Made by a program: the position numbers and the translations under genes. Positions 19,119 through 26,971 of a stretch of 36,974 bases of DNA are shown in pieces. The notes below the pieces were generated by a model that was not told where the DNA came from, made no database searches, and saw only the letters and a list, made by a program, of their open reading frames with translations. The stretch is from assembly GCA_022511205.1 (NCBI GenBank), contig JAFLRY010000018.1, forward strand, positions 1-36,974, written 5' to 3'. Every line of letters begins with the position of its first letter. Positions within the stretch are counted from its first letter, which is position 1. Source of the stretch: Eubacterium sp. (lineage in GTDB: Bacteria; Bacillota; Clostridia; Oscillospirales; Acutalibacteraceae).

Positions 19119-20165
19119 GTGGATGCGATTGCACATTTTTATACCGAAAACAAATTTTACGCCGATATCGTTATAGGTGTAGTAATTTTCATCGCGTTTT
19201 TCCTACTCAGAAAGGTATTCGCGGGCTTTATACTTGATTTATTTGGCAGGCTCATTTTTTTGCACAAGCCTGAGGACAGAAAGAGATTTAAAAAAACTTT
19301 GCTTATCCCCTTTTCCGCCTTTTTCGTTCTCCTTGGCGCATATATCGGTGTGTACATCAATTATCAGCACGAAGCCATAACGAAAGCCTTTAAAATTCTT
19401 GCTATCATCACGATTTGCCGCTGTATTCTCAGCTATCTTACTGAGCTTTTGCATACGCGTTTTGATCTTAACGACGAGCATTCAGCCGCCCACGGAGTAG
19501 TTGTAAAGTTCATTTCGAATATTTTCAAAATCGTCACCCTCTGCATCACGGTGGTTATGATCGTATCCGAGCTTGGCTACAACATAAACGGACTTATAAC
19601 AGGTCTCGGCGTTGGAGGTCTTGCGGTATCTCTCGCGGCGCAGGACACATTGAAAAATATAATTTCAGGCTTCATTATTTTATACGATAAGCCCTTCGTT
19701 TTAGGCGATCTTATCGAAACGCCCGATTTCAAGGGCTTCGTTGAGGATATCACAATGCGCTCCACACGGCTTCGCAAGCTTGATGATTCCATTGTTGTCG
19801 TTCCCAACTCCTCCCTTGCGGATTCCAATATCACCAATTACGCCGTTTTGAAAAGAAGGCTCGTTGAATTCAACATTGGCCTTTTATACTCCACCCCCAA
19901 CAGCGTTATTGAAAAATGCGAAAAAGAGATCAAAGAATTCCTTATGAACTGCAGCGCTGTTGATAATGAGACCATAAGGGTGCGCTTTACGGATCACGGC
20001 ACTTCGTCGCTTAACATAATTGTAAGGTGCTACGTTGATATAACCGACATAGAGATTTTCTTTGAATTCACGGAAACTCTTAATTTCAAAATTAAAGAGA
20101 TAATTGAAAACAACGATACGGATTTCGCTTATCCCACAAGAAGCATTAAAATAGAAAAAATATGA
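19119..20165 (+). CDS. MscS-family mechanosensitive ion channel
   Basis: 348 residues. About four hydrophobic segments lie in the first 170 residues. The last is the pore-lining helix with GLGVGGLAVSLAAQDTLKN, the Gly/Ala-rich TM3 signature of MscS, followed by IISGFIILYDKPFVLGDLIE and the beta domain (TRLRKLDDSIVVVPNS). The channel opens under membrane tension to release solutes on hypo-osmotic shock. GTG start at 19119, AAGGAGG 9 nt upstream. Its stop overlaps the start of the TSUP gene (ATGA), so the two are co-translated. Confidence 0.93.
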   Translation: MDAIAHFYTENKFYADIVIGVVIFIAFFLLRKVFAGFILDLFGRLIFLHKPEDRKRFKKTLLIPFSAFFVLLGAYIGVYINYQHEAITKAFKILAIITICRCILSYLTELLHTRFDLNDEHSAAHGVVVKFISNIFKIVTLCITVVMIVSELGYNINGLITGLGVGGLAVSLAAQDTLKNIISGFIILYDKPFVLGDLIETPDFKGFVEDITMRSTRLRKLDDSIVVVPNSSLADSNITNYAVLKRRLVEFNIGLLYSTPNSVIEKCEKEIKEFLMNCSAVDNETIRVRFTDHGTSSLNIIVRCYVDITDIEIFFEFTETLNFKIKEIIENNDTDFAYPTRSIKIEKI

Positions 20166-20932
20166 TCGAATTAATTTACGGAATTATAATAATCCTCGCC
20201 ACCTTTATGGGGGCATTCGTAGGTCTCGGCGGCGGCGTAATAATAAAGCCTATGCTCGATCTTATCGGACACGACCCGATCTCGGTTGTAAATTTCATAT
20301 CCGCCTGCGCTGTTTTCAGTATGAGCATTAGCTCCACTGTTAAGCACGTTAAGGCAAAAACAGAGATAGATTTCAAATTCATAGTCACCCTGTCTATAGG
20401 CGCGGTGGCAGGCGGGATCGGCGGCACGGCTCTTTTCGATTATCTGCTCACGCAATTCGATAATACCGCTTTGAAAAGGCTTCAGGGGCTTGTTCTCGGC
20501 ATTCTGCTGGTGGTATCAGTCATCTACATAAACGTTAAAAACGCCAAAAGCTTCAAGGTTAAAAATCCCGCGGGGATCGCTTTTGTTGGTCTCGCAATGG
20601 GCTTCATTGCCTCATTTTTAGGCGTTGGCGGCGGACCGATAAACGTTGCTTTTCTCGTGCTTTTCTTCTCAATGACTATGAAGGAGGCGGCAGTCTACAG
20701 CGTGGGCACGATATTCTTCAGCCAGCTTTCAAAGCTTGTTACTATGGTGATTAAAGGCACTATACCCGACTTCTCCCCCACCGTGCTTATCGTGGCGATA
20801 GTATGCGCCGTGGCGGGCGGAATTTTCGGCGCTAAGATGAACAAGAAGTGCAATGAAAAAGTGATAAAAACGGTGTTTACCGTTGTTGTTGCGGCGATCG
20901 CCGCAGTAAACTTTTATAACGCAATAGCTTAA
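20162..20932 (+). CDS. TSUP-family (TauE/SafE) membrane exporter
   Basis: 256-residue integral membrane protein with about eight hydrophobic segments in two homologous halves. Each half carries the family's glycine-rich motif: MGAFVGLGGGVIIKPML near residue 14 and IASFLGVGGGPINVAFL near 148. TSUP proteins move sulfite, sulfoacetate, thiosulfate or related sulfur anions. The gene overlaps mscS by 4 bp and is followed 56 bp later by a sulfatase, so export of sulfur oxyanions released inside the cell is a reasonable guess. The 56-bp gap contains a small hairpin (AGGCT/AGCCT near 20944-20960). Confidence 0.88.
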   Translation: MIELIYGIIIILATFMGAFVGLGGGVIIKPMLDLIGHDPISVVNFISACAVFSMSISSTVKHVKAKTEIDFKFIVTLSIGAVAGGIGGTALFDYLLTQFDNTALKRLQGLVLGILLVVSVIYINVKNAKSFKVKNPAGIAFVGLAMGFIASFLGVGGGPINVAFLVLFFSMTMKEAAVYSVGTIFFSQLSKLVTMVIKGTIPDFSPTVLIVAIVCAVAGGIFGAKMNKKCNEKVIKTVFTVVVAAIAAVNFYNAIA

Positions 20933-20988
20933 GGCTGACAGAGTAGGCTTGTATTGAGCCTCTCCGCCTTAATGAAAGGAGTAAAAAT

Positions 20989-22314
20989 ATGGGAAAGAAA
21001 AACATCATCTTCTATTTTTCGGATCAGCAGAGGTGGGATACCGTTAACGAAACGGTTACGCCCAACCTTATGAAGCTTGCCGAAGAGGGCGTTTTGTTTG
21101 AAAACAACTTCACCTGCCAGCCCGTATGCGGTCCTGCAAGGGCATGCCTGCAATCGGGTATGTACGCAACGCAGGTGGGCTGTTATTGGAACGGTATCGC
21201 CCTGCCGGATAACATTCCTCCCCTTGCGAGATATTTCAACGAGGCGGGATATGAAACGGCTTACATAGGCAAATGGCACCTTGCTTCCGACCGCTATCCG
21301 GGAATAGGACTGCACTGCGAAAAAGGCCCGATACCGAAGGAACGCCAGGGCGAATATCAATACTGGCGCGCGGCGGACTGCCTTGAATTTACCTCCCACG
21401 GTTATGACGGCTACGTATTTGACGGCGACGGCAACAAGATAGATTTCACAGGCTACCGCGCGGACTGCATCAACGATTTTGCCCTTGAATATCTTGAAAA
21501 CCGCGATAAGAGCAAGCCTTTCTTTATGTTCGTAAGTCAGCTCGAACCGCATCATCAGAATGACCGCCATTGCTATGAGGGCTACAAGGAGACCATAGAC
21601 GATTACAAGGACTATCCTATCCCCGATGATCTCACCTTCTTAAAGGGCGACTATAAGGAATGCTATCCCGATTATATGTCCGCTATCAACAGGCTCGATT
21701 ACAACGTGGGCAGACTCGTTGACAAGCTCAAGGAGCTGGGAATTTACGACGATACGATCATCATTTACACCAGCGACCACGGCAGTCACTTCAAGACGAG
21801 AAACCCCGAATACAAACGCACCTGCCACGAAAGCGCCAGCCACACTCCCCTTATCATAAAGGGCGGCGGCTTTGAGGGCGGAAAAAGAGAAGAAAGGCTC
21901 TCGAGCCTTATCGATATGCCGCCAACGATGCTTTCAATGGCGGGAATAGATATTCCCGAGCAGTATATGGGCGTTGATCTCACGAAGCAGATCGGTAACC
22001 CCGATGAAAAGCGCCAGTGCGTGTTTATGCAGATCAGCGAAAGCCAGTGCGGCAGAGCCATCCGAACGGACAGATTCAAGTACGCCGTTAGAGATGCCGG
22101 AATCGTTGGCTACATTCACCATAGCAGTAAGGTTTATTTTGAGGATTATCTCTACGATCTTGAAAAAGACCCGATCGAAAAGAACAATCTTATCAAGGAT
22201 AAAAAATACGCTCATGTCCGTCAGGAGCTGAAATATCTACTCATTGAGCAGATGGTAGCCGCCGATGAGGACAGACCTGTGATATTGCCCGCAATAATCA
22301 AGAGAAAGAAATAA
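20989..22314 (+). CDS. Type I sulfatase (formylglycine-dependent), cytoplasmic
   Basis: 441 residues, no signal peptide. Hydrolyses sulfate esters using a formylglycine made from C47 in the signature CGPARACLQSG (CxPxR). The second sulfatase signature GYETAYIGKWH is at 87-97. Metal-binding positions appear in IIFYFSDQQRWD and TIIIYTSDHGSHF. The first motif, SDQQRWD, is of the bacterial glycan-sulfatase kind rather than the DDxGYGD of many arylsulfatases. The substrate is unknown; a sulfated sugar from host mucin or glycosaminoglycan is possible. No maturase (anSME) is visible nearby. GAAAGGAG precedes the ATG. A 213-codon antisense frame inside it is a shadow. Confidence 0.93.
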   Translation: MGKKNIIFYFSDQQRWDTVNETVTPNLMKLAEEGVLFENNFTCQPVCGPARACLQSGMYATQVGCYWNGIALPDNIPPLARYFNEAGYETAYIGKWHLASDRYPGIGLHCEKGPIPKERQGEYQYWRAADCLEFTSHGYDGYVFDGDGNKIDFTGYRADCINDFALEYLENRDKSKPFFMFVSQLEPHHQNDRHCYEGYKETIDDYKDYPIPDDLTFLKGDYKECYPDYMSAINRLDYNVGRLVDKLKELGIYDDTIIIYTSDHGSHFKTRNPEYKRTCHESASHTPLIIKGGGFEGGKREERLSSLIDMPPTMLSMAGIDIPEQYMGVDLTKQIGNPDEKRQCVFMQISESQCGRAIRTDRFKYAVRDAGIVGYIHHSSKVYFEDYLYDLEKDPIEKNNLIKDKKYAHVRQELKYLLIEQMVAADEDRPVILPAIIKRKK

Positions 22315-22321
22315 TAAAGCT

Positions 22322-22355
22322 AAAAGGGTGGAACGATAAAGTTCCGCCCTTTTTA
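22322..22355. terminator. Bidirectional terminator after the sulfatase
   Basis: 13-bp stem AAAAGGGTGGAAC/GTTCCGCCCTTTT (22322-22334 with 22341-22353; one G-U), 6-nt loop, T tract on the right and A tract within the stem. It lies between the convergent sulfatase and surface-protein genes. Confidence 0.8.
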
Positions 22356-22364
22356 TATGCTCAT

Positions 22365-23219
22365 TTATGCATTTTTCTTATGCTTCTTTACTACGATGCT
22401 TATTACCACAACCGCGGCAACTGCGCATACACCTGCGGCAACGTATATCAACGCTGTGCTATCCATATCATTTTCGGTATTCTCAATTACTGAGTTTATA
22501 TTGTCAGTTTTAACCTCTCCGTTTGTTGCATCCGCAGTGATACTGTTCTCGTTTTCATTAGCAGCTTGATCCTTATCATTATCATTTCCTTTCGGATTTG
22601 AATAATCAACTAAAACATTTACGTAAGGGATCTCGTCTTGCCCGTTGATCAGCTTGATATCAATATAATTATCTTTTTGGGCTATGACCTCGTAGTTTTT
22701 GCCCTCTGTCATATTTGGAAATTCCCAACCTGTAACTGAGCCTTCAGCGGTATATTCTAATCTAAAGCCCTCTGAAGCAGGAGTATACGTTACAGTAACG
22801 TGTCCGGGGCGGGTGGTATTGGTATAAGCCGTTATATCCTGTACATTTGTGCGGATCGGCCAATGCTCAAAATCAACTAAAACATTGATATACGGAACAA
22901 TGTCTTTGCCGTTAAGTAATTTAAACTCAATATCATCCGTACCCCTGCTGAGGATCTCATAATCAACGCCTTCGGTCAGCGTGGGGAATTCCCAGCCGGT
23001 AACTGTTCCGCCGCCCCAATATCTATAGTGGTGGCTATCGGGAGAAATTTCGTAATCCTCAATAACGTCATTACTCTTAACGCCGTTAATATAAGTTAAT
23101 ACTTCTTTCGGATCCTCAATCACGGGCCATTTTTCGTCTGCCAAAGCGGGTAAGCTGCTTGAACACAAAATTACCAGCACCATAATAATTTCTGTAAATA
23201 AAGATACGAATTTTTTCAT
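22365..23219 (-). CDS. Secreted, C-terminally membrane-anchored protein with a duplicated domain
   Basis: 284 residues; I do not recognise a named family. A signal peptide (1-27, likely cut after LPALA) leads to two tandem copies of a domain of about 80-85 residues. The best-conserved stretches are TVTGWEFPTLTEGVDYEI (72-89) with VPYINVLVDF, and SVTGWEFPNMTEGKNYEV (161-178) with IPYVNVLVDY. An Asn/Asp/Glu-rich linker (209-253) then precedes a transmembrane helix (255-277) ending VVKKHKKNA. The topology is therefore extracellular with a single C-terminal anchor, not LPxTG. AAAGG precedes the ATG. The gene has its own ECF-like promoter, nearly identical to that of the carboxypeptidase gene upstream. 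Confidence 0.85.
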   Translation of the reverse strand: MKKFVSLFTEIIMVLVILCSSSLPALADEKWPVIEDPKEVLTYINGVKSNDVIEDYEISPDSHHYRYWGGGTVTGWEFPTLTEGVDYEILSRGTDDIEFKLLNGKDIVPYINVLVDFEHWPIRTNVQDITAYTNTTRPGHVTVTYTPASEGFRLEYTAEGSVTGWEFPNMTEGKNYEVIAQKDNYIDIKLINGQDEIPYVNVLVDYSNPKGNDNDKDQAANENENSITADATNGEVKTDNINSVIENTENDMDSTALIYVAAGVCAVAAVVVISIVVKKHKKNA

Positions 23220-23260
23220 TTTTAATCAACCTTTCTTAAATAAAATATAAACAAAATGCA

Positions 23261-23288
23261 ACGTCGGAATTCCGTTCTTAAGAACGTT
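23261..23288. other. Overlapping palindromes in the leader of the duplicated-domain gene
   Basis: CGGAATTCCG (23265-23274) and CGTTCTTAAGAACG (23273-23286) are perfect palindromes that share two bases. CAACGT and ACGTTG enclose both (about 23259-23288). They lie just after the predicted transcript start, so they could be a dimeric-regulator site or a structured leader. On the minus strand a T-rich stretch follows, so weak termination is also possible. Confidence 0.5.
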
Positions 23289-23300
23289 GTCATAATGTAA

Positions 23301-23327
23301 GTAATGAAAAACTGTAAAAGCGTTACA
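23301..23327 (-). promoter_or_regulatory. ECF-type promoter, copy 1
   Basis: Minus-strand TGTAAC (23327-23322), 15 nt, CATTAC (23306-23301). It aligns with copy 2 at 24379-24405: 31 of 38 positions are identical over TGTAAC...TATGA by hand alignment. TGTAAC is a -35 typical of ECF sigma factors such as Bacillus SigX. Confidence 0.6.
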
Positions 23328-23350
23328 AAGAATTTGAAAAATTTTCAGAA

Positions 23351-24307
23351 TTAAAAATCGTATGAAATAACCTCATTCAATGCGTCTATAACCTGAATAT
23401 CACTTACTGAATATGAATCCTTAAACTCCACCAAAGCGGATTTTGCGCCGTAATGCTCTTTGGCAAAGCCCATAATAAAGCCGTCATCTGCTCTGTACCA
23501 GTCGGAGTGTCCCCTGCTTATGCCAAGGCTTGGAACGAGGATATCTACAAGATCGGGATCGCCTAAAACGGAATTCTCCCAACCGTGGAAATTGATATAA
23601 ATGCTTGGTGTATACTTGTCCATAAGGCTTTTCAGCGCCCGTGACTCAACGGCTTTAAAGAGACCCTCTTTAAAATCGCGGTTCATATCAATGCCCGAGT
23701 AAGTGCATCTGCCGAAAGCATCTCCCTCATCAGCGCGATGATCGTTAACGCCGTACAATACACCGTCCGGATTGGCGCAGGGAACAATAACCATTTGATA
23801 ATCGCCGAGAGCTTCGGGGTTTTCCGAGTAATATTCAACCAAGCTGTAGCCGAGATCCACTAAAACCCTGCCGTCGTTCGCGTATTCATCCTCAAAGCCG
23901 TGAACGGCGAAATCCATAAAAAAGACCTTATCGTTATCACCGCGGCCGTTGATGATATATGCTTCAAGGGGTTGCCCCATTTCAGAATAACCGTAGATAT
24001 ATTTGGTGCACACTTCCTGTTCTGCTTCTTCGGTTTCTTCAACTTCTTCAACTTCCTGTACGGACTCCTCTTGTGGCTCGGTAACGGTTTCCGTTATTTT
24101 CTCAATTACAGGAATATCGCTCGGCTCCTCAACGTCACACTGATTAAATAATATCTGCGCTGCCATATCGCCAACCAAACTTTCAAAGTGTTCTATGATA
24201 ATGGCAACAGCTTCCGATCTTGCGCTTGCAAATGCGGGCAAAGCGCAAGAACACATAATTGCAATTACTATAATAATTGCACTTAATAACGATAAGGATT
24301 TTTTCAT
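23351..24307 (-). CDS. Secreted M14-family zinc carboxypeptidase
   Basis: 318 residues. Signal peptide 1-27 (ends LPAFA), then a long spacer with a Glu/Val-rich acidic stretch (PQEESVQEVEEVEETEEAEQ), then a compact M14 catalytic domain from about residue 100. Zinc ligands H136 and E139 (HGFE) and H241 (INFHGW), substrate-binding arginine R210 (GIDMNRDF), and catalytic E294 (ALVEFKD) are all present, so it should be active. M14 enzymes of this compact kind trim C-terminal residues from peptides, including peptidoglycan stem peptides; the target is not known. Start at the ATG at 24307: AGAGG lies 9 nt upstream; a TTG at 24316 is also in frame. It has an ECF-like promoter. Confidence 0.88.
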   Translation of the reverse strand: MKKSLSLLSAIIIVIAIMCSCALPAFASARSEAVAIIIEHFESLVGDMAAQILFNQCDVEEPSDIPVIEKITETVTEPQEESVQEVEEVEETEEAEQEVCTKYIYGYSEMGQPLEAYIINGRGDNDKVFFMDFAVHGFEDEYANDGRVLVDLGYSLVEYYSENPEALGDYQMVIVPCANPDGVLYGVNDHRADEGDAFGRCTYSGIDMNRDFKEGLFKAVESRALKSLMDKYTPSIYINFHGWENSVLGDPDLVDILVPSLGISRGHSDWYRADDGFIMGFAKEHYGAKSALVEFKDSYSVSDIQVIDALNEVISYDF

Positions 24308-24378
24308 TTCATTCAACCTCTTTCGAAAATTTTCCGGACAGCGCGATATTCATTTTCACTGCCGCCTTCATATTGCAA

Positions 24379-24405
24379 GTAATGAAAAATCCTCAAAGTG
24401 TTACA
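24379..24405 (-). promoter_or_regulatory. ECF-type promoter, copy 2
   Basis: Minus-strand TGTAAC (24405-24400), 15 nt, CATTAC (24384-24379), 72 bp before the carboxypeptidase start. Spacing and flanks are the same as copy 1 at 23301-23327. The two genes downstream share no other leader similarity. Confidence 0.6.
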
Positions 24406-24432
24406 ATTGAATTCAAAAAAATTTTTTGTAAC

Positions 24433-24466
24433 GAAAAAAGCCTGCCTTGCTGTTGCAAGACAGGCT
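24433..24466 (-). terminator. Terminator of the sigma-propeller operon
   Basis: 12-bp stem AGCCTGCCTTGC/GCAAGACAGGCT (24439-24450 with 24455-24466, one mismatch), TGTT loop, followed on the minus strand by TTTTTTCG. Confidence 0.8.
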
Positions 24467-24483
24467 CTCGTTTTTAAGGGCAT

Positions 24484-26391
24484 TTATTCATATTTATGTG
24501 ATGAAATTACGATTGTTTCGTTTAAGGGCGCATCATTGTTTATTTCAAAACAATACAGATAATCGCCAATGCATATCCATCTTCTTTCAATGAAATTTAT
24601 TTCATTTACAAAATGATTCGTGATTTCTATCTTATCGTTAACGATTTCAATTGTAAGAGCGCCGCTTTTTTCTTCATCCTCATTACGATATATGCAGGAA
24701 ACGGATATATAGCCTTTTTCGGCATTAACAACGTAATTATCAAAAATAAGTCCTACATCATAAAATTCTTTATAGTCAAGCAGTTTCGGAGCAGACTTGT
24801 CTGAAACATCATAAAGAATTATTGCAGAAGCATCTAAACCTTCATTTTTGCCAAGGCAGAGTACCTGGTTTTCATTAACGGGGATTATCAATTCAATCCA
24901 CAAGTCGCTGTCCATTGTGCATTTTTCAGCGGGATTTTGCGGGTCGGAGAAATCTATTACTCTAAACTTATATTCATTAGAATACTCGTCGCTGTATGTT
25001 GGGATATATGTCGAGATATACATCGCATCATCAGCAAAGCTTGCGCAGATAATTTGCTCTCTACCGGAAAAGCTCTTTGTTTTACCGATCACTTCCAATT
25101 TTTCGTTTAATACGAAAATATTATCCGTATCATAATAATCGCGTTCAAGAATTATCAACAGGTCATTTACTTCCAAAAGTTCTATGAAGTCATTAAAACG
25201 ACCGTTAATTATTGACTTCTCAGTAAACTCTATGTTGCCTTCATTTAGTTCGGCTTTTATGATGTCCAAATCATCACCGTAGTAAGATTTCAAACCGAAA
25301 ATATACAGATTTTGTTCACTGAAATATACGTTTGCAATGGTGCCAAGAACAGCTTTGGAATCTGATACTTTTTCAGCTTTTTCAACGTCTATGGCGGTTA
25401 TGACCGCAAAGTGTGAAACATTTGAATCTTCAAATACGCTTATATTATCGGCAGGAACCGAAACCGCATTGTTCAGTTTTCCGCACGAGGGGATCGTGTG
25501 TTTTCCCTTTTCTTTTGAAGCATAGTAATATGAAACGGTATACAAATAATTGCCGATCATCTGTGAGGAAACCTTCCTACCGCTCTGCTCAAATTCAGAG
25601 ATCAGCTTCGGAGCAGATCTGTCTGATATATCGTATATCTGAGTTACCGTTTTTTTGAAATCGCGCTCATATTCAAGGGAGGAATCACGATCCTCTATTC
25701 CGATTTCAACTACCAGCCGATCATTATACACATATAAGTCCGACATCCATGCGGAAAATGAATCGGAATACTCTTCTCCTTGAGTATCGACTTCATAATT
25801 AATGACAGAAATAAGCTCTGCTTTGTCTTTATTGATTTTATAAATATAAACTCTGTTTTGCTCTTTCTCCGCTCTACCGGAATCGTCATAAGGAGTATAA
25901 TTGTAGAGACGATAAACGTATTCTCCGTCGATTTTTATTTCGTCAGGCTCTTGAACATTTTCGGCTTTATCGCTTGTTTGAATTTCAAAGCCTCCTGCTC
26001 CGGCCTCTACCATAGGATCCCAGCCCATACGATCAATCATCAAATAAAGTGCTTCATAATCCTCGTTGGATGAATTGCTATCAACGCTTTCGGAAAAGGT
26101 TGAGCTTATATTCACTTCGTTATAATAATTTCCTACCTTATTACTGTTTCCGGAAAAGAGTCCGCCGACGTATGCCGCGTACATAATCCCCAAAAAGAGA
26201 ATCAATCCCGCCGCGGCGCTTACGATAGCCTTAACGTTATACCTCGGTTTAAGCTTGATAACCTTAGGCTCTTGCTTTGATAAAAGGAGTTGGTTGATCG
26301 CTTCTTCACTTAAGCTTTCGGGCGTGGCAGGATAAGTCTTTTCGAATTTATCTTTAACAAATTCAAAATCGTTCATATTATTGCGCTCCAT
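24484..26391 (-). CDS. Membrane-anchored beta-propeller protein, probable anti-sigma/sensor
   Basis: 635 residues. A cytosolic N-terminus of about 53 residues (NDFEFVKDKFEKTYPATPES, then LSEEAINQLLL) is followed by one transmembrane helix (about 54-76, AIVSAAAGLILFLGIMYAAY). The large extracellular region is predicted to be a beta-propeller of the COG4880/Beta_propel type. Repeated blade motifs are YDISDRSAPKL (about 253-263), VIDFSDPQNPAEK, and YDVSDKSAPKL (about 528-538). The gene overlaps the end of the ECF sigma gene by 14 bp, the usual place for the cognate anti-sigma factor, and the topology fits. There is no recognisable zinc-finger (ZAS) motif in the short cytosolic part. AAAGGAG lies 8 nt before the ATG at 26391. 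Sensor function is inference from topology and context. Confidence 0.85.
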   Translation of the reverse strand: MERNNMNDFEFVKDKFEKTYPATPESLSEEAINQLLLSKQEPKVIKLKPRYNVKAIVSAAAGLILFLGIMYAAYVGGLFSGNSNKVGNYYNEVNISSTFSESVDSNSSNEDYEALYLMIDRMGWDPMVEAGAGGFEIQTSDKAENVQEPDEIKIDGEYVYRLYNYTPYDDSGRAEKEQNRVYIYKINKDKAELISVINYEVDTQGEEYSDSFSAWMSDLYVYNDRLVVEIGIEDRDSSLEYERDFKKTVTQIYDISDRSAPKLISEFEQSGRKVSSQMIGNYLYTVSYYYASKEKGKHTIPSCGKLNNAVSVPADNISVFEDSNVSHFAVITAIDVEKAEKVSDSKAVLGTIANVYFSEQNLYIFGLKSYYGDDLDIIKAELNEGNIEFTEKSIINGRFNDFIELLEVNDLLIILERDYYDTDNIFVLNEKLEVIGKTKSFSGREQIICASFADDAMYISTYIPTYSDEYSNEYKFRVIDFSDPQNPAEKCTMDSDLWIELIIPVNENQVLCLGKNEGLDASAIILYDVSDKSAPKLLDYKEFYDVGLIFDNYVVNAEKGYISVSCIYRNEDEEKSGALTIEIVNDKIEITNHFVNEINFIERRWICIGDYLYCFEINNDAPLNETIVISSHKYE

Positions 26392-26917
26392 AAACAACAC
26401 TCCTTTCCGTTAATTCATTCTTCATTTTCGAGATGCTTCGGCTCAGTATCGTGCGAACGTTTCCCGCCGAATATCCCGCAATTTTCGCAACCTCTTTGCT
26501 TTTGAAGCCGGCAATAACTGAAAGATAAACGATCTCTCTTTCTTTTTCCGAAAGCTTATCAAGGCATTCTCTCAATTCCGTTTCTTCAATAAGCCTGTCT
26601 GAGTTTGGCGACGATATGTCCGAATAGCTCTCCAATTCGTCGGTATTTCTTCTCTTTATCTGCTCTTTTATATAATTCGCGCAACAAACGCTTAATATCT
26701 TAAATATCCACGAGGAAAAGGCTTCGGCCTTTTTCAGCTTTCCTATCTGCTCATATGCTGAAAGCACACAGGATTGCACAGCGTCCTCCGCGTCATCAAC
26801 GTTGCCGAGCTTATAATATGCATATCTGAAAAGCTTGTCCTTATAACAGCCGTAGAGCTTTGAAAACGCCGCCGTATCCCCGTTTTTCGCCAATTGTACG
26901 AGTTCGCTTTCAGTCAT
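26378..26917 (-). CDS. ECF-type RNA polymerase sigma factor
   Basis: 179 residues. Region 2 is LYGCYKDKLFRYAYYKLGNV then DDAEDAVQSCVLSAYEQI. Region 4 is LDKLSEKEREIVYLSVIAGF then KSKEVAKIAGYSAGNVRTIL. It lacks regions 1.1 and 3, as expected for an ECF factor. The start is placed at 26917 (MTESELVQLAKNGD), because GAGGTGAC precedes it; the frame extends to a GTG at 26935 that overlaps the ribosome-binding site. It is co-transcribed and overlaps with the propeller protein. Its likely targets in the window are the two TGTAAC/CATTAC promoters downstream; its own promoter is of housekeeping type. Confidence 0.93.
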   Translation of the reverse strand: MTESELVQLAKNGDTAAFSKLYGCYKDKLFRYAYYKLGNVDDAEDAVQSCVLSAYEQIGKLKKAEAFSSWIFKILSVCCANYIKEQIKRRNTDELESYSDISSPNSDRLIEETELRECLDKLSEKEREIVYLSVIAGFKSKEVAKIAGYSAGNVRTILSRSISKMKNELTERSVVYGAQ

Positions 26918-26942
26918 ATTGTCACCTCTCTTCACAGATATA

Positions 26943-26971
26943 ATGTTAATTTATTTCCTACTGTTTGTCAA
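26943..26971 (-). promoter_or_regulatory. Housekeeping-type promoter of the sigma-propeller operon
   Basis: Minus-strand TTGACA (26971-26966), 17 bp, TAACAT (26948-26943). A TAACGCT word just upstream resembles the ECF -35, but no matching -10 follows it. Confidence 0.65.

Follow-up and report, generated by a model that had tools for sequence, protein, structure and literature searches.

The window analysed here is the whole 36,974-nucleotide stretch of contig JAFLRY010000018.1 from Eubacterium sp., a gut-type bacterium not yet cultured (assembly GCA_022511205.1, genome G000 below), and our subject is a locus at 22365-26935 in which four minus-strand genes encode an extracytoplasmic function (ECF) sigma factor, a propeller protein with one transmembrane (TM) segment, an M14 carboxypeptidase and a duplicated-domain surface protein. 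A first-pass annotation had described these four genes, and open reading frames (ORFs), Pfam matches and hydrophobic segments bear out the description. All locus features given below lie on the minus strand. The sigma factor (26378..26935, 185 residues) consists of sigma2 and sigma4 domains, with PF04542 and PF08281 both exceeding their cut-offs; its probable start, chosen by eye, is the ATG at 26917, preceded by AGAGAGGTGA, and its -35 recognition helix reads SAGNVRTILSRS. The propeller gene (24484..26400) probably starts at the ATG at 26391, again by eye, and overlaps the sigma stop codon. Its product, a candidate anti-sigma factor and sensor, matches PF09826 (E 7.9e-56; 190.4 bits against a cut-off of 22.4) from residue 142 onward, and a single hydrophobic segment (residues 54-84) divides a predicted cytoplasmic N-terminus of about 50 residues, which bears a conserved DFxFIKxKF-type motif, from a predicted extracellular beta-propeller. 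A search for sequence relatives of solved structure gave two weak matches to this protein (E 0.05 and 0.09) and no convincing one. The M14 gene (23351..24316, probable start by eye ATG 24307) encodes a predicted secreted zinc carboxypeptidase with an N-terminal hydrophobic stretch, a PF00246 match (E 8.9e-14; 52.2 bits against a cut-off of 21.6) and, by eye, the HxxE, NR, H and E motifs that hold the zinc and catalytic residues. The last gene (22365..23219) encodes a secreted, membrane-anchored protein with a duplicated domain and hydrophobic segments at residues 1-29 and 252-281; no Pfam family exceeded its cut-off, and the predicted structure is of low confidence (predicted local distance difference test score 45).

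The first-pass annotation had further assigned a normal promoter and a terminator of its own to the sigma-propeller operon. Both are present. A sigmaA-like promoter, TTGACA-N17-TAACAT, lies at 26943..26971 and is one of the three equal-best matches of the region (10/12) in a sigma70-like scan, which overall gave no excess of sites (17, against 13.4 with standard deviation 3.6 in shuffles). The intrinsic terminator at 24436..24469 (-24.7 kcal/mol, z -6.8, followed by a T run) came from folding-energy scoring and is not listed by the scan that gave the sigmaA-like promoter. A hairpin 3' of the surface-protein gene (22322..22353; -17.1 kcal/mol, z -4.6) is a possible second terminator. The M14 and surface-protein genes each follow a promoter of another, ECF type, namely TGTAACACTTT-N13-TACTT at 24377..24405 and TGTAACGCTTT-N13-TACTT at 23299..23327. 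As claimed earlier, the two are nearly identical: TGTAAC-N15-CATTAC occurs exactly twice in the window, at these two places. Once two mismatches are allowed, the window has no more copies of the bare hexamer pair than chance would give (3 found against a shuffle mean of 1.77, with 30 of 100 shuffles reaching 3). The extended site TGTAACNNTTTNNNNNTTTTTCATTAC, with up to three mismatches, has three matches in the whole 1.9-Mb, 74-contig genome, against one for the reversed pattern; two are the window promoters, and the third lies on another contig (G000:C1:99816). This third site, found when the motif was sought before other genes as the first-pass annotation had proposed, begins about 70 nt 5' of the likely ATG of a lipoprotein-like protein with a lipobox-like N-terminus and an HExxH motif (HEVSH; both by eye) and no Pfam match. 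Only 8 of 80 genomes, the window's own among them, have a relative of this protein; the others align in the C-terminal part only, and they lend the regulon no support. By a position weight matrix (PWM) built from relatives' sites, the lipoprotein, M14 and surface-protein sites score 24.6, 21.3 and 14.3, respectively.

Both within the genus and outside it, the sigma-propeller pair is conserved. Propeller homologues were found in 22 of 40 genomes by a protein search and in 55 of 80 genus genomes by a profile search (E 1e-3; both counts include the window's own genome, and the second a few short or TM-region matches). Among 19 loci of relatives for which propeller homology was the sole criterion of choice (L044-L062), which form an unbiased sample (a further set, L178-L226, was mostly chosen for holding promoter sites and is hence biased), a sigma gene lies directly 5' of the propeller gene in 17; L047 is an eighteenth with an ECF gene beside the propeller, and L056 starts at a contig edge. 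The sigma genes of L047 and L319 were initially masked by the ORF filter. In a wider sample on named contigs, the best 80 of 431 loci (Ruminococcaceae, Eubacterium, Ruminococcus, Mogibacterium, Lachnospiraceae and others, mostly metagenome-assembled genomes, MAGs), 79 have a propeller ORF and 66 of these an adjoining ECF gene; three of the 13 without one are unjudgeable because of a contig edge. The two genes usually overlap or abut. Across the phylum, PF09826 is present in 101 of 398 genomes, and only one of the best 30 loci has an ECF gene next door. In 65 ECF-linked propellers the median start of the TM segment is residue 57; in 30 phylum PF09826 proteins, one of them ECF-linked, it is 9.5. 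The ECF-linked form therefore looks like a secreted propeller to which a cytoplasmic N-terminus has been added. This predicted cytoplasmic part spans about 30-60 residues, and its DFxFIKxKF motif is conserved in the sigma-linked family. Measured against the family profile, the partner sigmas comprise 57 strong and eight weak matches, which suggests at least two ECF lineages. Three propellers (L320, L322 and L324) carry a DFEFIKD-type N-terminus (DPEFVKD in L322) followed by a long, acidic, proline-rich linker before the TM segment; no ECF gene was found in these three loci, and the sigma may lie elsewhere.

The promoter type found before the M14 and surface-protein genes recurs before the sigma genes of relatives, as TTGCAACACTTT-N13-TACTTA-n-ATATGA. 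These sites share the layout of the window sites, mostly with C for T in the -35 element and a different -10 centre. The motif named in the first-pass annotation stands in the window; the conserved core, TGYAAC-N18-TACTT, runs past CATTAC to TACTT. A search of the genus outside G000 with the window's exact extended motif (up to two mismatches) gave 25 matches against 21 for the control, an apparent lack of conservation that is resolved by the C/T change and the TACTT core in the relatives' sigma upstreams. The pattern TGYAACRCTTT-N13-TACTT, with at most one mismatch, has 108 matches in the 80 genus genomes, 57 of which contain at least one; the reversed pattern has 38. Within the propeller-selected loci it precedes 14 of the 17 sigma genes, or 15 of 18 with L047; of the remainder, L054 has two mismatches, L058 a weak version and L062 none. 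Since no such site is found at the window operon, a predicted ECF site before the sigma operon is the rule and the window species the exception: the "normal" promoter is real, and it is what sets this operon apart from most of its relatives. The median PWM score is 38.9 for sigma upstreams (47 genes, 40 of them at 8 or more; most of the 43 sigma sites on which the PWM was trained are among them) and -14.5 for 322 unrelated ORFs, 12 of which score at least 8 and include the distant targets named below.

Two lines of evidence connect this promoter with the sigma factor. First, of the genomes with a propeller, 17 of 55 have a site away from the sigma operon with a 29-mer score of at least 15, and of those without one, 2 of 25 do (p 0.027); all 21 distant sites scoring at least 18, a threshold picked after the scores were seen, fall in propeller-positive genomes. 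In these counts, 48 of the 108 sites were labelled as sigma-operon sites, including those of G047 and G012, where the contig ends first, and of G009, where the sigma was confirmed. Second, the sigma residue that follows VR in the region-4.2 helix changes together with the third -35 base. Among 93 sigma proteins, the 79 with a site score of at least 8 were counted and 14 were dropped; TGC goes with xVRS (71) or VRC (2) in 73 of 73, and TGT with NVRQ (5) or the window's NVRT in 6 of 6, two of these six being set by hand (the window, its base taken from its targets, and G067, from the operon leader). Fisher's test gives 1e-7 with relatedness ignored. In the tree, the NVR[Q/T] sigmas fall in a single 11-leaf subclade with a support of 0.965, alongside four VRS members, which indicates that the change in base and helix happened few times. 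The covarying residue we take to be the counterpart of S172 of E. coli sigmaE. That serine is named as a -35 contact in PMC3397946. Because the -35 helix and the third -35 base covary, the sigma factor very likely reads the TGYAAC-N18-TACTT promoter.

Beyond the operon itself, the predicted regulon varies between species. The four-gene set that the first-pass annotation described is not conserved as a whole: M14 and surface-protein genes were found tied to the sigma in one sigma subclade only, and not in all its members. Among the 28 M14 genes with upstream DNA (G056, without an ORF match, and G090, with 2 nt upstream, were excluded, and for three of the 28 the upstream stretch was shorter than 450 nt), five, own included, carry an ECF site (G000, G004, G015, G024 and G058; PWM 18.4 to 33.9). 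Each of these five genomes has a sigma belonging to the 11-leaf subclade; of the genomes with M14, 5 of 7 with such a sigma have the site and 0 of 21 without it (p 2e-4). In all five promoters the -35 element has a third base that fits a sigma type in the same genome, a fit that is informative for G000, G004 and G015 only, as G024 and G058 carry both types. A surface-protein homologue adjoins the sigma-propeller pair on the same strand in two genomes, lying 5' of the sigma gene behind a TGTAAC site in G067 and 3' of the propeller gene in G064. The motif is thus found 5' of relatives' sigma operons and of some M14 and surface-protein genes, where the first-pass annotation had expected it before orthologues. 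In seven genomes (G000, G077 and five whose sigma is of the NVRQ type), exact TGTAACA-N17-TACTT has six matches, all of them regulon sites, against three for the control. Other distant targets, their signal peptides and anchors judged by eye, encode two choline-binding-repeat proteins (G058), proteins with a signal peptide and a C-terminal TM segment (G024 and G063) and duplicated lipoprotein-like proteins (G050 and G007). A further one, in G061, encodes an AMP-binding protein that presumably resembles DltA. The theme of these predicted targets is the cell surface, with exceptions.

Two observations concern homologues of these targets in other settings. Single-domain homologues of the surface protein adjoin a gene pair of the size of an ATP-binding cassette (ABC) exporter in several loci (similar layouts in L370, L371 and L375); in L373 (3638-10118), the only one of them searched with Pfam, the homologue lies by an ABC pair, a sortase gene and a LytR-CpsA-Psr gene. 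The window's genome also holds a second ECF operon (G000:C39, L225:132-2650), which encodes an ECF sigma factor of 167 residues, a 340-residue protein with a hydrophobic stretch near its N-terminus and no Pfam match, and a second M14 protein 63-68% identical to that of the window.

We propose, with a probability of roughly 0.78, that the locus encodes a one-TM ECF sigma/anti-sigma switch composed of the sigma-propeller pair, a dedicated TGYAAC-N18-TACTT promoter and surface-protein targets. Of the signalling unit put forward in the first-pass annotation, this retains the pair and its dedicated promoter before surface-protein genes; the full set of four genes is not conserved. In the proposed switch, the cytoplasmic N-terminus of the propeller protein (DFxFIKxKF...) would hold the sigma at the membrane, and the propeller would sense an outside ligand or envelope damage. 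Sensing would release the sigma, by proteolysis or a conformational change, and the released sigma would turn on secreted proteins that remodel or protect the envelope. The NVRT sigma of the window fits the TGTAAC sites of three units, those of the M14 protein, the duplicated-domain surface protein and the HExxH lipoprotein-like protein. Feedback of the sigma on its own operon is probable in most of the relatives examined. In the window species, where the operon carries a sigmaA-like promoter in place of the ECF site, the sigma is probably supplied without feedback, and control would lie solely with the propeller.

Several observations weigh against this proposal. Sigma binding, promoter use and release are predictions from sequence comparison, and the covariation, with its two hand-set T cases, may rest on one or two evolutionary changes. 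At the window, the sigma operon has no ECF-type site (best upstream PWM score -16.1), and the surface-protein site is the weakest of the three in this genome. M14 genes under the site are a minority, the other 23 of the 28 scoring -2.4 or less, and in G021 an M14 gene 3.9 kb past the propeller gene has a sigmaA-like promoter instead. The exact TGTAACA-N17-TACTT search gave no match in G022, G017 or G077 and missed the surface-protein site of the window, which reads TGTAACG. FGGY kinase genes, with no obvious surface role, stand under an ECF-type promoter in G064 and G044 (L195:626-2203 and L208:242-1843), and a few sites lie inside genes (L178 and L185).

The alternative that survives best, though we consider it unlikely, accepts that the sigma drives the regulon and takes the propeller to be a co-transcribed surface protein, the sigma being controlled in some other way. 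It draws on the fact that propeller-sigma binding is a prediction, that PF09826 often occurs with no adjoining ECF gene (29 of the best 30 phylum loci), and that Pfam recognises no known anti-sigma domain in the propeller N-terminus. Yet the ECF-linked propellers have a cytoplasmic N-terminus of about 30-60 residues with its conserved motif, their genes overlap or abut those of the sigmas, and they appear to have partners from at least two ECF lineages. Moreover, in Tt-TolB, a protein with a matching layout, it is residues 1-39 that bind the sigma (PMC3397946). A second alternative takes the conserved motif for a housekeeping sigmaA promoter on which another regulator's operator is superimposed, with the ECF sigma a mere neighbour. 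The genus consensus, TTGCAA-N17-TATACT, does resemble a sigmaA promoter; however, the common -10 core, ACT, has a C at the position for which sigmaA calls for A, many wider relatives end in GACACTATA or GCACTTAA-type sequences, and the window's two sites are missing from the sigma70-like list. The conserved ACACTTT after the -35 element, the covariation of the sigma helix with the -35 base and the occurrence of the strongest distant sites only in propeller-carrying genomes likewise speak against it, and we regard it as improbable. That the window promoters are alike merely through the duplicated flank of one gene, with no regulon, could draw on upstreams of the M14 and surface-protein genes that are similar over tens of bases and on similar signal peptides (both by eye), but it is very improbable given the third site before an unrelated gene on another contig and the presence of the motif in other species, ahead of their sigma operons and M14 genes.

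The sigma operons of relatives carry, in addition to the ECF site, a palindrome that begins at the predicted +1 directly after the -10 element (seen among L044-L062, L178-L226 and L268-L347). Examples are TGAAAGCTTTCA, TGAGAGCTCTCA, TGACGgCGTCA, TGACATGTCA and AACGACGTCGTT. Arms of at least four bases are present at 62 of 70 sites, in 34 distinct forms, and five of the 62 are plain ATATATAT. Arms of at least five occur at 44 of the 70 sigma-operon sites, against a mean of 5.0 (maximum 13) in dinucleotide shuffles and two in the next 28 nt. At 22 other sites the count is three, against 1.9 in shuffles; two of these three (L182 and L224) run into a contig edge and probably belong to sigma operons, and the third is the surface-protein site of the window. 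In a thinned set, arms of at least five are found at 15 of 30 sites, exceeding both the shuffles (mean 1.7, maximum 6) and a half-swap control (mean 4.3, maximum 8). The symmetry is therefore kept while the letters change between species. Target promoters of the same sigma mostly lack the palindrome, and the window sigma operon, which has no autoregulatory site, has by eye no palindrome either. The word GAAAGCTTTC is not confined to the sigma operon: in ten relatives each genome has 2-11 copies (53 in total, against seven for the reversed word). An RNA hairpin is a less likely reading of the palindrome, because by eye the symmetry often runs to the centre and leaves no loop. Tentatively, the palindrome could be a new kind of start-site control element overlaid on ECF autoregulation, either the operator of a fast-evolving dimeric regulator or a site of RNA pairing at the 5' end; we hold this to be possible rather than probable.

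The first-pass annotation knew of no characterised system with this set of parts. The kind of system, an ECF sigma factor with a one-TM propeller-type anti-sigma factor, is already known, since Tt-RpoE1 and the TolB-type Tt-TolB of Thermoanaerobacter tengcongensis have been characterised (PMC3397946, also the source of the further statements on this pair). There, too, the ECF gene is followed at once by that of a one-TM protein (about 645 residues in Tt-TolB), with a short N-terminal part before the TM segment and a large propeller-type domain after it. Tt-TolB inhibits Tt-RpoE1, which activates its own promoter, unlike the window operon with its lack of an autoregulatory site. The Tt-RpoE1 promoter reads tGTTAC-N16-CGTC, as opposed to TGYAAC-N18-TACTT here, and the parts covered give no targets beyond it, in contrast to the candidate regulon here. 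Tt-TolB (TTE0322) is annotated as TolB, and the window protein as PF09826.

The PF09826 (Beta_propel) proteins of the phylum belong to the same propeller family as the window protein and differ from it in mostly lacking an adjoining ECF gene and in having the TM segment or signal nearer the N-terminus. With canonical pairs of an ECF sigma and a membrane anti-sigma, such as Bacillus SigX/RsiX, the locus shares the sigma2-sigma4 make-up, AAC in the -35 element, a one-TM partner encoded downstream and envelope-type targets. It departs from them in a -10 core of ACT in place of CGT, a propeller sensor, the lack of a recognised anti-sigma domain and the start-site palindrome of relatives. The classical definition of ECF sigma factors includes a -10 box with CGT, and later ones are confined to domain make-up (PMC8103513). 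The window sigma has sigma2 and sigma4 domains only and, by the covariation, is assigned a promoter with AAC in its -35 element (TGYAAC); it lacks both the CGT box and, with no site before its own gene, positive autoregulation. A literature search of partial coverage found no paper on the ECF/PF09826 pair, the promoter code, the M14/surface regulon or the palindrome, and within that coverage these four are new.

For a sigma family that occurs here in many uncultured Clostridia, including rumen and gut MAGs, the analysis provides a testable sigma-promoter code, in which one base goes with two residues, together with a predicted regulon. It would extend the idea of a propeller anti-sigma factor, characterised in one thermophile, to a large group, and it brings to light a covarying palindrome at the start site, for which no reader was found. 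Next to the locus, at 20162-22314 on the plus strand, a gene for a TauE-type exporter (PF01925) lies immediately 5' of a sulfatase gene (PF00884), a possible sulfatase/sulfite-export pair.

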